Assembly (NCBI GenBank): GCA_027061995.1
Contig: JAMOUT010000022.1
Span: 1 to 13,654 of the forward strand
Origin: Candidatus Aminicenantota bacterium
Lineage (GTDB): Bacteria > Acidobacteriota > Aminicenantia > JAMOAD01
DNA length: 13,654 nt
Direction: 5' to 3'
In this document: piece after piece, positions 7,752 through 13,654 of the stretch
Layout: each line of letters begins with the position of its first letter
Position numbering within the stretch: the stretch's first letter is position 1
Notes under the pieces: generated by a model
Database searches by the model: none
Told to the model about the DNA's origin: nothing
The model's input: only the letters and a program-made list of their open reading frames with translations
Made by a program: the position numbers and the translations under genes

Positions 7752-7949
7752 GTTCTGATCTTTCCGCACTAAACCTCAAAAATGAATAAATAATGATTAT
7801 TCAAATAGAAATAAAAGAGCCGGTAAATGTAACAAAAATTAATATGCAACATAGTAAAAAAACTATCTTTTAATTTATGAAACTCTTTTCCATTCAATGG
7901 CTTCTCATCCCTTTTTCATTTGATTTTAAGATTTTTTTCATATTTTCTC

Positions 7950-7978
7950 TTTACTATATTTTTCTATTGTGCTATATT
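7950..7978 (+). promoter_or_regulatory. Candidate promoter of the CsgG-family gene
   Basis: TTTACT (7950-7955), a 17-nt spacer and TATATT (7973-7978) lie about 31 nt before the ATG at 8010. The spacing and distance are good, but the match is moderate for AT-rich DNA. Confidence 0.45.
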
Positions 7979-7999
7979 AAAATTATTTATAAAAACAAT

Positions 8000-8005
8000 A
8001 GGAGG
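8000..8005 (+). promoter_or_regulatory. Shine-Dalgarno that sets the start of the CsgG-family gene
   Basis: AGGAGG stands 4 nt before the ATG at 8010. It picks this ATG, which opens a clean signal peptide, over the in-frame TTG at 7920 that has no ribosome binding site. Confidence 0.85.
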
Positions 8006-8009
8006 AAAT

Positions 8010-8735
8010 ATGCGAAAAAGATTTGTATTATTAACATTGGTAATCTTTTTTAGTATCGTAATGCTTACTTATGCCGGTGAAAAACCTCGTATCGGTGTTT
8101 TAAGATTTACAAACACTGTGGCAGGTAATAGTTTCTGGGCTTGGAATCCCAAAGTGGCAACCGATTTACAAGATATGCTGATTTCGGAGCTTGCAAGCAC
8201 CCACGCTTTTCAAGTCCTTGAAAGAAAAGAGATAGGAGCCATTCTAACAGAGCAGGATTTGAGTGCCTCGGGAAAAGTAAGTAAATCAACCCTTGTTAAA
8301 ATGGGAAAAATCAAAGGAGCACAATATCTTATAGCTGGAACAGTTAGTGCCTTTGAGATGAGTCAGAGCACAGGCGGAAGAATCAGGTTTAAAGGGATAA
8401 GCCTCGGAGGTAGAAAAACAAAAGTATATATAGCAATTGATATTAAGGTTATAGATACAGAAACAGGAGAAATTATAGATACCAGAACAATAGAAGCTAA
8501 AGCAAAAGGAACGAAAATAGGAGCCGGTCTTTCATTGAGAAATTTTGACATAGGAGGAACTGAAGCTAAAAAGACACCTGTAGGAAAGGCAATAAGAGCC
8601 TGTATTATTTATATATCCGAATATCTTAAATGCTCACTTGCAAAAGTTCATTATCCGAGATGTATGAAAAAATGGGATAAAATGGAGAAAAAAAGAAGGG
8701 AAAAAACAAAAGGATCAATTGACTTGGATATTTAA
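8010..8735 (+). CDS. CsgG/HfaB-family exported protein
   Basis: A 241-residue protein with a signal peptide (Arg2-Lys3-Arg4, hydrophobic 5-20, probable cleavage TYA|GEK after residue 22). The mature part matches the CsgG family: PRIGVLRFTN (26-35), LQDMLISELASTHAFQVLERKEIGAILTEQDLSASG (53-88), AQYLIAGTVSAFE (104-116), VYIAIDIKVIDTETGEI (139-155) and TPVGKAIRACI (189-199). CsgG forms the outer-membrane curli secretion pore, while relatives act in holdfast anchoring or as periplasmic envelope factors. Unlike E. coli CsgG there is no lipobox Cys, so it is unlikely to be a lipoprotein, and no csgA/B/E/F is present. A curli role is therefore not supported. The C-terminus is a Lys/Arg-rich tail (220-235). 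The gene is monocistronic, with its own promoter candidate and a strong terminator. Confidence 0.83.
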   Translation: MRKRFVLLTLVIFFSIVMLTYAGEKPRIGVLRFTNTVAGNSFWAWNPKVATDLQDMLISELASTHAFQVLERKEIGAILTEQDLSASGKVSKSTLVKMGKIKGAQYLIAGTVSAFEMSQSTGGRIRFKGISLGGRKTKVYIAIDIKVIDTETGEIIDTRTIEAKAKGTKIGAGLSLRNFDIGGTEAKKTPVGKAIRACIIYISEYLKCSLAKVHYPRCMKKWDKMEKKRREKTKGSIDLDI

Positions 8736-8827: not shown

Positions 8828-9601
8828 CTAAAAAACAAAGAATTTTTTTTGTTCTGATATTCTTATCAACTCTTTTGCTAATTTTTCCGTTTCCATATCA
8901 TACTTTTTAAACGAATAATCATCCAAGTATGTGTTACCTTTATTTATTATTATAAGTTTCGCACCATTATCCAAAGCATATTCGGGAATTCTCGCAACAG
9001 GCTGAACGGTTAAAGACGAACCCATTATAATACATAAATCAGATTCAGATGCCGATTTAATTGCTTTATTAACTTTTGTTATATCCGGCTTTTCTCCGAA
9101 AAAAATTATATTTGGCTTTAACAGGCCATTACATCTCTTACAATAAGGAACTTCCCCTTTAACTATTTTGTCAAAAACTTTATTAATCTCCGTTTTATAA
9201 TCACATTTCACACACTTAAACTCAGTAAAACTACCATGAATCTCCATTAGTTTTTTTGAACCCGCTTTTTTATGTAAATTATCAATATTCTGAGTGATTA
9301 TCATATCGATTTTACCCGTTTTTTCCAATTTAACCAATAAATAATGGGAAGAATTTGGCTCTGCAGAATATAAAATAGGGAAAAAGTTTTTACCGAATGA
9401 ATAAAATTTCTCGGGATTCTCAATAAATTTTTCCAAATCAAAAACATTATCTCTTTTTTCCTTGTATATACCGTTTTCACCTCTAAAATCGGGAATACCG
9501 GATGCCGTGCTTATCCCCGCACCTGTTATAATGCATATTTTTTTTGATTGATTAATTATATCAAGAATCTCTTTCGCTTGTTCTTTATATTTTGATTCCA
9601 T
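8828..9601 (-). CDS. Sir2-family NAD+-dependent protein deacylase (sirtuin)
   Basis: A 257-residue sirtuin that removes acyl groups from lysine using NAD+. Motifs in order: ITGAGIS (25-31) and GIPDFRGENGIY (35-46) for NAD binding, TQNIDNLH (103-110), catalytic His122 in EIHGS, a zinc site Cys130-x2-Cys133 and Cys154-x2-Cys157, FGEKP (168-172), and GSSLTVQP (194-201). All key residues are present. Substrate class (acetyl or longer/acidic acyl) cannot be decided by eye. It is the last gene of the kinase operon. Its ATG at 9601 lies 17 bp inside the end of folC and has only a weak AAAGAA upstream, which suggests translational coupling. Gene names such as cobB or npdA are used for such proteins, but I do not assign one. 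Confidence 0.93.
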   Translation of the reverse strand: MESKYKEQAKEILDIINQSKKICIITGAGISTASGIPDFRGENGIYKEKRDNVFDLEKFIENPEKFYSFGKNFFPILYSAEPNSSHYLLVKLEKTGKIDMIITQNIDNLHKKAGSKKLMEIHGSFTEFKCVKCDYKTEINKVFDKIVKGEVPYCKRCNGLLKPNIIFFGEKPDITKVNKAIKSASESDLCIIMGSSLTVQPVARIPEYALDNGAKLIIINKGNTYLDDYSFKKYDMETEKLAKELIRISEQKKFFVF

Positions 9602-10856
9602 GTTCTTTAATTAGTTTTTGAATATCACCGACAAGGTATAAAGAGCCGGTAACCAATATTTTATTATTTCCCGATATTTTTATTATTCGTTCAATAGCCT
9701 TTAAAAGTTCAAATTCAATCTCAACTTTATTTTTGAACTTTTTCAGCTCTTTTTTGATAAGTTCGGGTTCTTCCGCTCTATGAATATCAGCTTTAGTTAT
9801 AATTATCTTTTTACATAATGGAAATAATAGTTCCCCCATATCTTTTATCTTTTTCCCCTTTGATGCACCGAAAATACAGTATAAATCCCTATACCCTTTT
9901 TTAACAAGAAATTGGGCAACTCTTTTAATACCGTCAATATTATGAGCTCCGTCAAATATAACTCTATCATTTAGAATTTCTAGCCTCCCCTCTATAAAGG
10001 CGGTCTCTACACCTTTTATAACATCCTCTTTTTTAAATGATATATTAAGAGCTTCAAAACTTTTTATTGCCACAGCTGCGTTTTCCCCTTGATGTTTACC
10101 ATTTAGTTTAGGTTTAAAACGATATCCCATTTTTGTGGTTTTATAATAATATTCCCCTTGTTTTGTCACACTTAATTTATTATTCCTATCAAACGCTTTT
10201 ATTAATTCAGCCCCTCTTTTTTTAGCAATATCTCTAATCACATTAATAACATGGTATGGTATTCTTCCGACTATTATAGGTTTTTGAGATTTAATTATCC
10301 CCGCTTTCTCCCTTGCTATTTTTGTGAGAGTATTCCCGAGAATCCTTGTATGATCATAACTAATAGTGGTTATTACACTTAATTCCGGATTAACCACATT
10401 AGTGGCATCCAGCCTTCCGCCAAGACCTATTTCAAACACACTCCATTCCACATTTTTTTCTGAAAAATACATAAATGAGGCTATAGTCATAGTTTCAAAA
10501 AAGGTTAAAGGATTAGGTAAATTTCCCTTTTTTAACTCTTTCTCAACCGTGTGTTTTATGTGAAAGACTATTTTTTCCAATTCTTGATTCTCTATTTTCC
10601 TATTATTTACCCTTATTCTCTCATTAACACTAATAAGATGAGGTGATGTATATAATCCTGTTTTATACCCCGACTCCAAAAGAATATTACTTAAGAAAGT
10701 TGATACGGACCCTTTTCCGTTTGTTCCTGTAATAAGAATTGATTTAAAATTATTCTGAGGGTTTCCTAATACTTTTAATATTGACTCTATTCTTGTTAAT
10801 TCAAGTTTTAAACCAGCTCTTTGTATTGTTTGTAAATATTCGTTTAATCTATCCAA
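9585..10856 (-). CDS. folC: Bifunctional folylpolyglutamate synthase / dihydrofolate synthase
   Basis: A 423-residue Mur-ligase-superfamily enzyme that adds glutamate to dihydropteroate and folates using ATP, in the cytoplasm. Visible are the P-loop GTNGKGS (44-50), SPHLISVNERIRVN (71-84), FEIGLGGRLDATNVV (141-155), SYDHTRILGNTL with His169, EKAGIIK with Lys189 at the position usually carbamylated, GKHQGENAAVA (253-263) and FDGAHN (301-306). The length is normal. The start is a TTG at 10856. The in-frame region upstream is closed by a stop three codons earlier, and the conserved 'GLKLELTRIESIL' N-terminus is needed, so no later start fits. No strong Shine-Dalgarno is seen; the preceding coiled-coil gene ends 14 nt upstream. 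No other folate gene is in view. Confidence 0.95.
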   Translation of the reverse strand: MDRLNEYLQTIQRAGLKLELTRIESILKVLGNPQNNFKSILITGTNGKGSVSTFLSNILLESGYKTGLYTSPHLISVNERIRVNNRKIENQELEKIVFHIKHTVEKELKKGNLPNPLTFFETMTIASFMYFSEKNVEWSVFEIGLGGRLDATNVVNPELSVITTISYDHTRILGNTLTKIAREKAGIIKSQKPIIVGRIPYHVINVIRDIAKKRGAELIKAFDRNNKLSVTKQGEYYYKTTKMGYRFKPKLNGKHQGENAAVAIKSFEALNISFKKEDVIKGVETAFIEGRLEILNDRVIFDGAHNIDGIKRVAQFLVKKGYRDLYCIFGASKGKKIKDMGELLFPLCKKIIITKADIHRAEEPELIKKELKKFKNKVEIEFELLKAIERIIKISGNNKILVTGSLYLVGDIQKLIKEHGIKI

Positions 10857-10870
10857 TAATTTTTATGCTA

Positions 10871-11107
10871 TTAAATCTCTTCCGCATCCTCCTCATCTTC
10901 AGCAAATTCATCAGGAACACCAAGAAGTGTAGCGGCTCCATCATAAATCTGTTTAATAACTTTTCTTTTGTTTTTTAATTCAGCCATTTTGTTTTTAAAA
11001 TTTTCGATCTCTTCCTCAATTTGAGCATCAATAGACTTTATCTGCTCTCTAGTTTGATTTAGCGTGTTGTTGTAAAATTCTTTTTGTTCATCATTTAATG
11101 CTGGCAT
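10871..11107 (-). CDS. Small acidic-tailed coiled-coil protein, unknown function
   Basis: A 78-residue protein I do not recognise. Residues about 16-55 have a heptad-like series of hydrophobic positions (Leu16, Ile23, Ile26, Ile30, Ile34, Phe37, Met41, Leu44, Ile51, Ile54) between Glu, Lys, Gln and Asn, so a helical coiled coil is likely. The last dozen residues are nearly all acidic (EFAEDEEDAEEI). There is no signal peptide, membrane segment or Cys, so it is presumably cytoplasmic. Coding is supported by a strong ribosome binding site (AAGGAGAG, 6 nt before the ATG at 11107) and its tight place 14 nt after the kinase and 14 nt before folC. It could be an adaptor, regulator or substrate of the kinase, but nothing in the sequence proves this. 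Confidence 0.8.
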   Translation of the reverse strand: MPALNDEQKEFYNNTLNQTREQIKSIDAQIEEEIENFKNKMAELKNKRKVIKQIYDGAATLLGVPDEFAEDEEDAEEI

Positions 11108-11121
11108 TTTTTTACTCTCCT

Positions 11122-13479
11122 TTATTTTTTTATTAATAGACTAACAGTTTTCCATGATTTTACTTTTATTCCATTCTTTTTCGGAATAGAGAACCGCCAA
11201 TCTTTTATAACTTTTTTCATCTTTGAATCAAGTCCCGCTATTTTAGGAATAATTCTAATTATTCTAAATGTTTCGGCTTTTCCATTTGTATTAACAAGAA
11301 CCTGCATGATAACTCTTATAGCTCCGAGTCTTGTTTCCCCGTAGGTTAAAGACGGACTAACTTGTTTTAAAACCTTAATAGGGCTATCAAGTTGGGGATA
11401 CGCCACTACATCACCCTCTTTAATTATAGGTTGTTTTTGAATAATCTTTTTTGGTTTTGGTTTGGGTTCCGGTTTTTGAACAGTGGGTTTATTGTTTTGA
11501 ATATTTTGTATCACATTGGTGTTATTCTTATTATTATCATTCGCAGATTGGGAATCTTGACCTTGAATCACTTTTTTATTTTGCTTTGAATCGGTTAATT
11601 TTGTATTTTGGGAATCATTATTCTGAGTGATAATATTATTGTTTTGAGCAATAACATTATTATTTTGTGTTTTGTTTATTTTAGGCTTTGATTGCTGTTG
11701 TTTTGTGTTTCGTATGGGTTCTTTATTTTTATTGCTCGGACTAATCGTAGCAATAGTTTTTTTATTTATTTTATTAATATTATCATAATTATTTTGTTGT
11801 ATTGAATTTATTGTATTGTTAATTTGAGTTTTATTTTTTTTGTTATTGACCGAAGTATTTTGTCCCTGTTGATTTTGACTTTGAGTATTTACATCTTTTT
11901 CGCTTATGGTATTATTATCAATAGTTTGATCTTGTGTTATTGTTTGCTCTTGTTGATCAGTGCTCGAACTATTATCCTGATTATCAGTTTGCCGAGACAT
12001 CTCCTCCGGTTTGGGTGGAATTACAATGTTATTATGATTCTTATTAGGAAGAACTGTAGAAAAAAACTTTTGATAAGCAAAATACCCACCAGCTCCGAGT
12101 ATTGCAAGCATTAAAAATACAATTAGAAACCTTGAAAAATGACTTTTCTCTTTCTTTATCGTTATGGCGATTTCTTTTTCCAACATCATTTTCTCTTTTT
12201 CTTTCTTTTGTTCCTCTATTATATCTTCATAAGTTTTTGTGTTACGGATTTTTCTTTCATTTTGTCCTTCTTTTTCTTTTTGCTTGCCGGCATCAATCTT
12301 TTTGTTTTCGATTTTTTCCTCTTTCTTATAATCTTTCTCTTTTTTCACATTTTTTTCCGAAAGACTTTTTTTATTTGATTCAATTTCATCCTCTTCGGTT
12401 AATTCTATAACAATCTCATCACCTTCAACCTTCGCTTCACTAACTCTTTTCTCTTTCTTTGTTTTTTCAGATATGATTTTATCTATCTCATCTTTTCTTT
12501 TTACTAATTCAATGGTATCGTCAATGGTAAAACCAGCTTTTCTTGTTTCATCCGGAAAATTCTTTGCTACGAACTTGGAAAGTAAATCTTTTAATATGGC
12601 AATATTGGTTACCTCTTTAATCAATACTTTTTCAATATCATTTCTTAATTCTTTCGCATTCTGATATCGTTTATCGGGATTTTTTTGCATACATTTATCG
12701 ATAATTTTAACTATTTCTTCTGATATGGAATGATTTAATTTTCTCGGATCTTCATATTCAACTTTTTTTACTTTCTCTAATATTGCAGGTTCCGAAAAAG
12801 AGATAAAAGGGTTTTTCAGTGTTAAAGTTTCATATAAAAGGATGCCGAGGGCAAATATATCCGTTCTTAAATCAACCTCTTTTCCGCTTGCTTGCTCGGG
12901 AGACATATAGATATATTTACCTTTTAATCCTCCGGCTATTGTGTGATGTAGTTTCACTCTTGCTTTGGATATACCAAAATCAACAAGTTTAACTTCCCCT
13001 TCAAATGATACAAGAATATTATTAGGATTAACATCACGATGAACAATCCCCATTGGTTGTCCATAATGATTTTTCTTTTTATGCGCATAATCAAGAGCTT
13101 CACTAACTTTTAGCGTTATATATAATGGTATTTCCACGGGGAAATGTCTTTTGCTTTTTCTCAGTTTTTTATTAATCGTCCCCAAATCTATCCCTGCAAT
13201 ATATTCCATAGCTATTATAAATTCATTATCCATCTTCCCCAAATCAAATATCTGAACAATATTCGGATGTGATAAAGAAGCTGCGATTTTTGCCTCATCA
13301 ATAAACATCTCTATAAATTCTTCATCATCAGCAAGATGTGGCAATATCTTTTTAATAGTAACTATTTTTTCAAAACCAACGGCTCCCCTTTGCTTTGCTT
13401 TGTATATTTCAGCCATGCCACCGGTAGCAATTTTCTCAATAAGCTGATATTTACCTTCAGCTTTTACCTCCGGTTTCAC
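11122..13479 (-). CDS. Transmembrane Ser/Thr protein kinase with Gln/Asn-rich linker and TonB-like C-terminal domain
   Basis: A 785-residue protein counted from the GTG at 13479. The cytoplasmic kinase domain (about 10-290) is complete: Gly-loop IATGGMAEIYKAK (17-29), ATP-binding Lys43, helix-C Glu62, HRDVNPNN (Asp149, Asn154), DFG (167-169), GGLKGKYIYMSPEQ (183-196). A Lys/Glu-rich segment (330-447) leads to one membrane helix (about 449-469), with basic residues on the inner side. Next come a linker in which about 70 of 175 residues (496-670) are Gln or Asn, a TonB-like Pro/Lys stretch KPEPKPKPKK (669-678), and a TonB C-terminal-type domain (about 690-785: GAIRVIMQVLVNTNGK, then KKVIKDWRFSIPKKNGI). 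It probably joins a periplasmic or outer-membrane input to cytoplasmic phosphorylation. The GTG has no ribosome binding site and the frame is open upstream, so the true N-terminus is uncertain. It leads the operon containing the 78-residue protein, folC and sir2. Confidence 0.88.
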   Translation of the reverse strand: MKPEVKAEGKYQLIEKIATGGMAEIYKAKQRGAVGFEKIVTIKKILPHLADDEEFIEMFIDEAKIAASLSHPNIVQIFDLGKMDNEFIIAMEYIAGIDLGTINKKLRKSKRHFPVEIPLYITLKVSEALDYAHKKKNHYGQPMGIVHRDVNPNNILVSFEGEVKLVDFGISKARVKLHHTIAGGLKGKYIYMSPEQASGKEVDLRTDIFALGILLYETLTLKNPFISFSEPAILEKVKKVEYEDPRKLNHSISEEIVKIIDKCMQKNPDKRYQNAKELRNDIEKVLIKEVTNIAILKDLLSKFVAKNFPDETRKAGFTIDDTIELVKRKDEIDKIISEKTKKEKRVSEAKVEGDEIVIELTEEDEIESNKKSLSEKNVKKEKDYKKEEKIENKKIDAGKQKEKEGQNERKIRNTKTYEDIIEEQKKEKEKMMLEKEIAITIKKEKSHFSRFLIVFLMLAILGAGGYFAYQKFFSTVLPNKNHNNIVIPPKPEEMSRQTDNQDNSSSTDQQEQTITQDQTIDNNTISEKDVNTQSQNQQGQNTSVNNKKNKTQINNTINSIQQNNYDNINKINKKTIATISPSNKNKEPIRNTKQQQSKPKINKTQNNNVIAQNNNIITQNNDSQNTKLTDSKQNKKVIQGQDSQSANDNNKNNTNVIQNIQNNKPTVQKPEPKPKPKKIIQKQPIIKEGDVVAYPQLDSPIKVLKQVSPSLTYGETRLGAIRVIMQVLVNTNGKAETFRIIRIIPKIAGLDSKMKKVIKDWRFSIPKKNGIKVKSWKTVSLLIKK

Positions 13480-13654
13480 CGCTTTAGACTTTTCTTTGGT
13501 ATCTTGTTTATCCTTATTAGATTTTTTTTGTTCCGCCTCTATACTTTTTTGTTTTTCCTCGATTTTTTTCTCAATCTCTTCTAACTGTTTTCTCTTTTGT
13601 TCGGGAGATAAATCTTCAATTTCATTTATTTTTTTTTTTCTTTTTTTTTAAATC
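13480..13654 (-). other. In-frame open upstream extension of the kinase, ending at poly-A tracts
   Basis: On the minus strand the kinase frame runs open for 56 codons before the GTG (13647 to 13480), and encodes charged, coding-like sequence such as LSPEQKRKQLEEIEKKI. It holds no ATG, GTG or TTG and is closed by TAA at 13650-13648, at the start of tracts of 9 A (13649-13641) and 11 A (13639-13629) split by one G. The nearby ATG at 13625 is in another frame and stops after 14 codons. One extra A would join this frame to the other frame running off the window edge (Asp-Leu-Lys...). So either an A was lost in assembly, the tract slips, or initiation is unusual. Confidence 0.6.

Follow-up and report, generated by a model that had tools for sequence, protein, structure and literature searches.

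Two proteins of the gliding machinery of Myxococcus xanthus, GltG (PglI) and GltJ (AgmX), join a cytoplasmic signalling module through one membrane helix and a periplasmic arm to a TonB-like C-terminal domain (PMC3169522, PMC5349195). A membrane helix, a long periplasmic linker and a TonB-fold C-terminus also make up the TonB/TolA energy transducers, and the PASTA kinases PknB and Stk1 are bitopic Hanks-type kinases with an extracytoplasmic sensor part. A receiver fold devoid of the phospho-accepting Asp has been described in FrzS of M. xanthus (PMC1974792). The 13,654-nucleotide contig JAMOUT010000022.1 (assembly GCA_027061995.1) of a Candidatus Aminicenantota bacterium, hereafter the window, was found to carry part of a gene whose product resembles each of these in some respect. 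The product differs from GltG and GltJ, which belong to a proton-driven gliding machine and whose published domain table includes no kinase or receiver (GltG has an FHA domain). Where PknB/Stk1 have PASTA repeats, it has a long flexible arm with a TonB-fold domain at its tip, together with an extra N-terminal pseudo-receiver and presumably a diderm host. Unlike TonB and TolA, it has a membrane helix without His, no adjacent ExbB/ExbD or TolQ/TolR genes and a large cytoplasmic kinase half, whereas FrzS, a polarity protein of social motility, contains no kinase or TonB fusion. The reading that we favour, with a probability of roughly 0.55, is that of a bitopic envelope-sensing receptor Ser/Thr kinase in which the TonB fold, not energised, acts in the periplasm as a tether or a binding domain.

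The first-pass annotation of the window had described positions 11122-13479 as a gene for a Ser/Thr kinase fused to a TonB-like domain. The complete kinase, one strong membrane helix and the TonB-related C-terminus were all recovered, but the stretch is not the whole gene. The open frame lies on the minus strand, the plus strand being full of stops there, and the gene is cut by the end of the contig, which the window covers entirely (G000:C22; genome of 2.36 Mb in 104 contigs). Most of the missing N-terminal 346 residues were located on contig C96 of the same genome, which was found by searching the genome with the N-terminus of an orthologue and gave a match at its very end. Over 122 bases C96 overlaps the window exactly, and the joined frame encodes 1131 amino acids (aa). 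An apparent in-frame stop at 13648-13650 belongs to the final bases of the window, a region in which the two contigs disagree within A-runs. In three of four family genomes the orthologous proteins, of 1042-1086 aa, have an N-terminal receiver domain. A stand-alone 785-aa protein starting at 13479 was rejected because the frame continues onto C96 and the GTG at 13479 is internal. The order in the full protein is receiver, linker, Hanks-type kinase, one membrane helix, a linker of about 220 aa and the TonB-like domain.

Taken alone, the tail of the window protein did not sustain the TonB C-terminal signature noticed at first pass, as it fell below the cut-offs of both Pfam TonB_C (E 6e-4, 20.6 versus 24.6 bits) and TIGR01352 (19.5 versus 27.1); the signature was upheld by the family and the predicted structure. 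A profile built from 47 aligned family tails matched solved TonB domains with E-values of 4e-13 (2k9k) and 1e-11 (1u07), TonB_C was matched by all 47 tails at E<=0.01 (best 2.6e-22), and profile comparison with the genome's own TonBs gave 98.9% (E 2e-17). The AlphaFold2 model of the tail, with a mean predicted local distance difference test score (pLDDT) of 89, aligned to the TonB C-terminal domain 6i97_D with Z 9.8 and a root-mean-square deviation of 2.5 Å over 87 residues; seven further TonB-type entries gave Z 8.0-8.7, against about 5 for TolA, and the Foldseek result agreed with the TonB fold. Family conservation, profile E-values and fold led to the rejection of a chance or low-complexity match. 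Because of the family profile and the fold, the single sequence being sub-threshold, membership of the tail in the TonB C-terminal domain superfamily is confirmed at the level of sequence and model.

The linker that precedes the tail, with 220 residues here and 112-230 in the family, would in principle be long enough to span the periplasm. The TonB-like Pro/Lys stretch noted previously proved to be confined to its last ~20 residues, the remainder being mostly Asn/Gln/Lys-rich. In G004 (L038, L043), a G+C-rich genome that shares family and gene order with that of the window, the linkers are Pro/Ala instead, and linker composition seems to track genome composition. A TonB-type tail was also seen on a 181-aa protein encoded elsewhere in the window genome (L001 1492-2037, G000:C87), where TonB_C (75 bits) follows a prepilin-like N-terminus (GFSLVGAIVIIAIV); the fetched stretch contained no ExbB/ExbD.

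Coupling of TonB and TolA to ExbB/ExbD (TolQ/TolR) requires a His in the membrane helix, and this residue was found in none of 49 family members. As previously remarked, exbB and exbD are not adjacent: none occurs in the window, and among 51 tail loci just two have them within the fetched stretch, though not next to the tail gene. A check of the genome for these genes and for TonB-dependent receptors, suggested at first pass, revealed a separate canonical TonB-ExbB-ExbD locus and a Tol locus elsewhere, as well as seven Plug-domain receptor matches and four ExbD matches, two of the latter outside the identified TonB and Tol loci. Since TonB, Tol and Plug-domain receptors are present, the organism is presumably diderm. 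A canonical TonB energy transducer was rejected on the missing His and the neighbourhood; judged by these features, the protein is without the hallmarks of an energised TonB and is predicted not to be an energy transducer. The earlier proposal that the TonB fold serves as a plain periplasmic binding domain agrees with the confirmed fold, the helix and the neighbourhood.

The receiver on C96 scored 61.8 bits with PF00072 (cut-off 30.2) and has Gly at the phospho-accepting position (DAVITGVVIPKMDG). The phospho-accepting Asp is also absent from 26 of 27 relatives, replaced by Glu, Ser, Ala, Thr, Arg or Asn, while one retains it; the domain is therefore a pseudo-receiver, and a functional phosphorelay receiver was rejected. 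A YKG-type motif follows this position in most relatives. Between receiver and kinase, a motif like [LI]FGD[IV] is found in most kinase-bearing members, ILFGDIL on C96 included, and in none of the listed kinase-less ones. The kinase scored 139.6 bits with PF00069 (cut-off 31.7) and contains the Lys, HRD, DFG and Mg-loop motifs; its catalytic residues do not vary among the 22 aligned members with the same architecture (type I, see below), and by these residues it is predicted to be active.

Profile searches covered 297 Acidobacteriota genomes, and a tail-profile match of some kind was obtained in 223 of them, the weak ones including ordinary TonBs. The named close relatives are metagenome-assembled genomes of Candidatus Aminicenantes, a group assigned by GTDB to Acidobacteriota, and the contig scan named two close relatives and one Fischerbacteria locus. 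Three architectures were distinguished among the fetched loci: type I, pseudo-receiver, kinase, transmembrane helix (TM) and tail (864-1166 aa); type II, pseudokinase, TM and tail (587-644 aa); and type III, pseudo-receiver, TM and tail (517-740 aa). Related kinase-TonB fusions, for which the first-pass annotation had pointed to delta-type genomes, were found in Acidobacteriota, the phylum sampled. That annotation mentioned neither the N-terminal pseudo-receiver nor the downstream partner gene, the pseudokinase paralogue or the phylum-wide conservation.

Type II proteins matched the kinase profile with 100% probability (E 1e-43), yet are without HRD and DFG, and a role as a second catalytic kinase was rejected on these missing motifs; the type II model (pLDDT 91) gave kinases as its Foldseek matches. 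A long tail protein and a pseudokinase tail protein occur together in 22 genomes, as counted by combining the lists for the 297 genomes by hand. In the type II protein of the window genome the tail region is 49% identical to that of the window kinase, and its gene stands directly downstream of a zinc-ribbon kinase-TPR gene. This arrangement was observed in the window's family (L039 6509-9301 and 9339-11192), where a zinc-ribbon kinase with TPR repeats directly precedes the pseudokinase-TM-TonB-tail gene and fabH and folP lie downstream. In another family of the class (L136 927-2444; also L135, L137 and L138) a gene for an FHA-GAF-nucleotide cyclase precedes the pseudokinase gene, from which it is separated by one TPR gene.

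Next to the kinase gene, on its downstream side, the window encodes a 78-aa coiled-coil protein for which no Pfam model reached its cut-off. Of 31 type I/III loci, 29 have a homologue immediately downstream, as against none of the 17 type II loci (Fisher p 4e-11), and the small gene was found in 108 of the 297 genomes, nearly always once.

In the proposed receptor kinase, the pseudo-receiver would act as an interaction domain and not as a phosphorelay switch, followed by a flexible linker and the active Hanks-type kinase, all of them in the cytoplasm. The kinase half is placed there because a kinase needs ATP. One membrane helix would lead to the long flexible periplasmic arm, with the TonB-fold domain at its end. 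This domain would be passive, undriven by ExbB/ExbD, and most likely docks a beta-strand from a partner that lies in the outer membrane or is associated with peptidoglycan, or pairs with the same domain of the pseudokinase sister. Engagement or loss of the partner would change the pairing state of the kinase and thereby switch phosphorylation inside, as in other bitopic Hanks kinases. The pseudokinase sister may be the pairing partner in many genomes, and the small coiled-coil protein may be an adaptor or a substrate that attaches to the cytoplasmic half.

Several points weigh against this reading. From the positive-inside rule the assumed topology gains no support, the N-side net charge being more positive in 12 of 49 members only, so that charge bias leaves the matter undecided. 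One large family of the phylum (L155-L159) has a kinase that ends right after the membrane helix, with no TonB tail and the small gene still next to it, and another group keeps receiver and tail with no detected kinase and the small gene after it; sensing through the tail is therefore not essential everywhere. Because it also stands beside these tail-less kinases and kinase-less tail proteins, the small gene appears to follow the locus and not any one domain. Where type II was matched strongly, in 78 genomes, the small gene is present in 72, a listing-based count that ignores genome relatedness, the genomes not being independent. Moreover, we infer the pairing, the direction of signalling and the parts played by both partners, and any ligand, substrate or interaction is putative. 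Tentative, and somewhat unlikely in its entirety, is a wider reading of the family as a receptor system of the whole Acidobacteriota phylum, in which the active kinase and its dead sister pair via their periplasmic TonB-fold domains, the small coiled-coil protein reads the cytoplasmic state, and the TonB fold has turned from force transducer to envelope-integrity sensor.

The strongest competing explanation is a mechanical scaffold comparable to GltG/GltJ, whose TonB-fold arm would cyclically contact outer-membrane proteins, moved by an unlinked motor of the TolQR/ExbBD type. The kinase, the pseudokinase and the pseudo-receiver would then be modules that regulate it from the cytoplasm. The two ExbD matches outside the TonB and Tol loci would suit such a motor, and the window tail does match NF033768, the AgmX/PglI tail model, but at 18.8 bits against a curated cut-off of 40, which nothing in five family genomes exceeded. 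With no helix His in the 49 members and no motor genes adjacent, we consider a scaffold of this kind unlikely. The TonB-fold domain might instead bind peptidoglycan or a cell-wall precursor, the kinase controlling wall growth in the manner of the PASTA kinases. TonB-type C-terminal domains are reported to bind peptidoglycan, which counts for this idea, and the topology is that of PknB/Stk1. The Stk1/PknB model NF033483, however, matched the kinase region only, at 256.7 bits against a cut-off of 450, no PASTA match was listed, and no consistent wall-gene neighbourhood was seen at the family loci. SjdR, a cyanobacterial protein once annotated as TonB-like, shapes septal peptidoglycan, but it is described as having no TonB-like periplasmic domain (PMC8262864). 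A wall-binding analogue of the PASTA kinases is accordingly placed below the scaffold and held to be improbable. A true TonB-type energy transducer serving TonB-dependent receptors, with its activity tuned by the attached kinase, would fit the fold of the tail and the Plug-domain and ExbD matches of the genome; the lack of the helix His in every member, a cytoplasmic part of ~800 residues and the canonical TonB-ExbB-ExbD and Tol loci already in the genome make it highly improbable.

Table 1 Features of the kinase gene and its downstream neighbours in the window; residues are numbered from the open reading frame (ORF) start at 13479.
Feature	Position	Strand	Basis
C-terminal 785 residues and stop of the 1131-aa pseudo-receiver/kinase/TM/TonB-like protein	11122..13479	-	ORF, contig join
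Continuation of the reading frame of the same protein; 13638..13517 matches the end of C96 exactly, and the 5' part of the gene is on that contig	13480..13638	-	
Hanks-type Ser/Thr kinase domain, ORF residues 11-276; catalytic Lys, HRD, DFG and SPEQ intact	12652..13449	-	
Single transmembrane helix FLIVFLMLAILGAGGYFAY, ORF residues 451-469, without the TonB/TolA His	12073..12129	-	
Predicted periplasmic linker, ~220 residues, Asn/Gln/Lys-rich, Pro/Lys-rich at the end only	11416..12072	-	
Predicted TonB-fold C-terminal domain, ORF residues 689-785; Pfam TonB_C match at 722-777	11125..11415	-	
Coiled-coil protein of 78 aa, C-terminus acidic; next gene downstream after the kinase gene, conserved partner family	10871..11107	-	
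folC, downstream neighbour; synteny conserved in part of the family, no functional claim	9585..10856	-	

Directly upstream of the kinase, a gene for a small multi-helix membrane protein is present in the window genome and in a second family (L167 1223-1702; L118, L119, L120, L126), with phmmer E-values of 1e-13 to 4e-8. The window also encodes a CsgG-domain protein (7920-8735, plus strand, 151.5 bits), and no other curli genes were recognised in it.

No paper on a kinase-TonB fusion was found in a literature search of partial coverage, and the word 'kinase' does not occur in a 2025 study of TonB/TolA evolution. The single domains are known, while their combination and the conserved partners appear to be undescribed. 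In proteins of this kind, domains labelled TonB or response regulator though their defining residues are missing would be a clear source of annotation error. If the proposed receptor is real, a phylum of common, poorly studied bacteria would employ the TonB fold in signalling instead of transport, and would have a receptor made up of a kinase paired with a pseudokinase, an arrangement more familiar in animals. The conserved locus of kinase and small coiled-coil gene would make such an envelope signal testable in cultivable Acidobacteriota.
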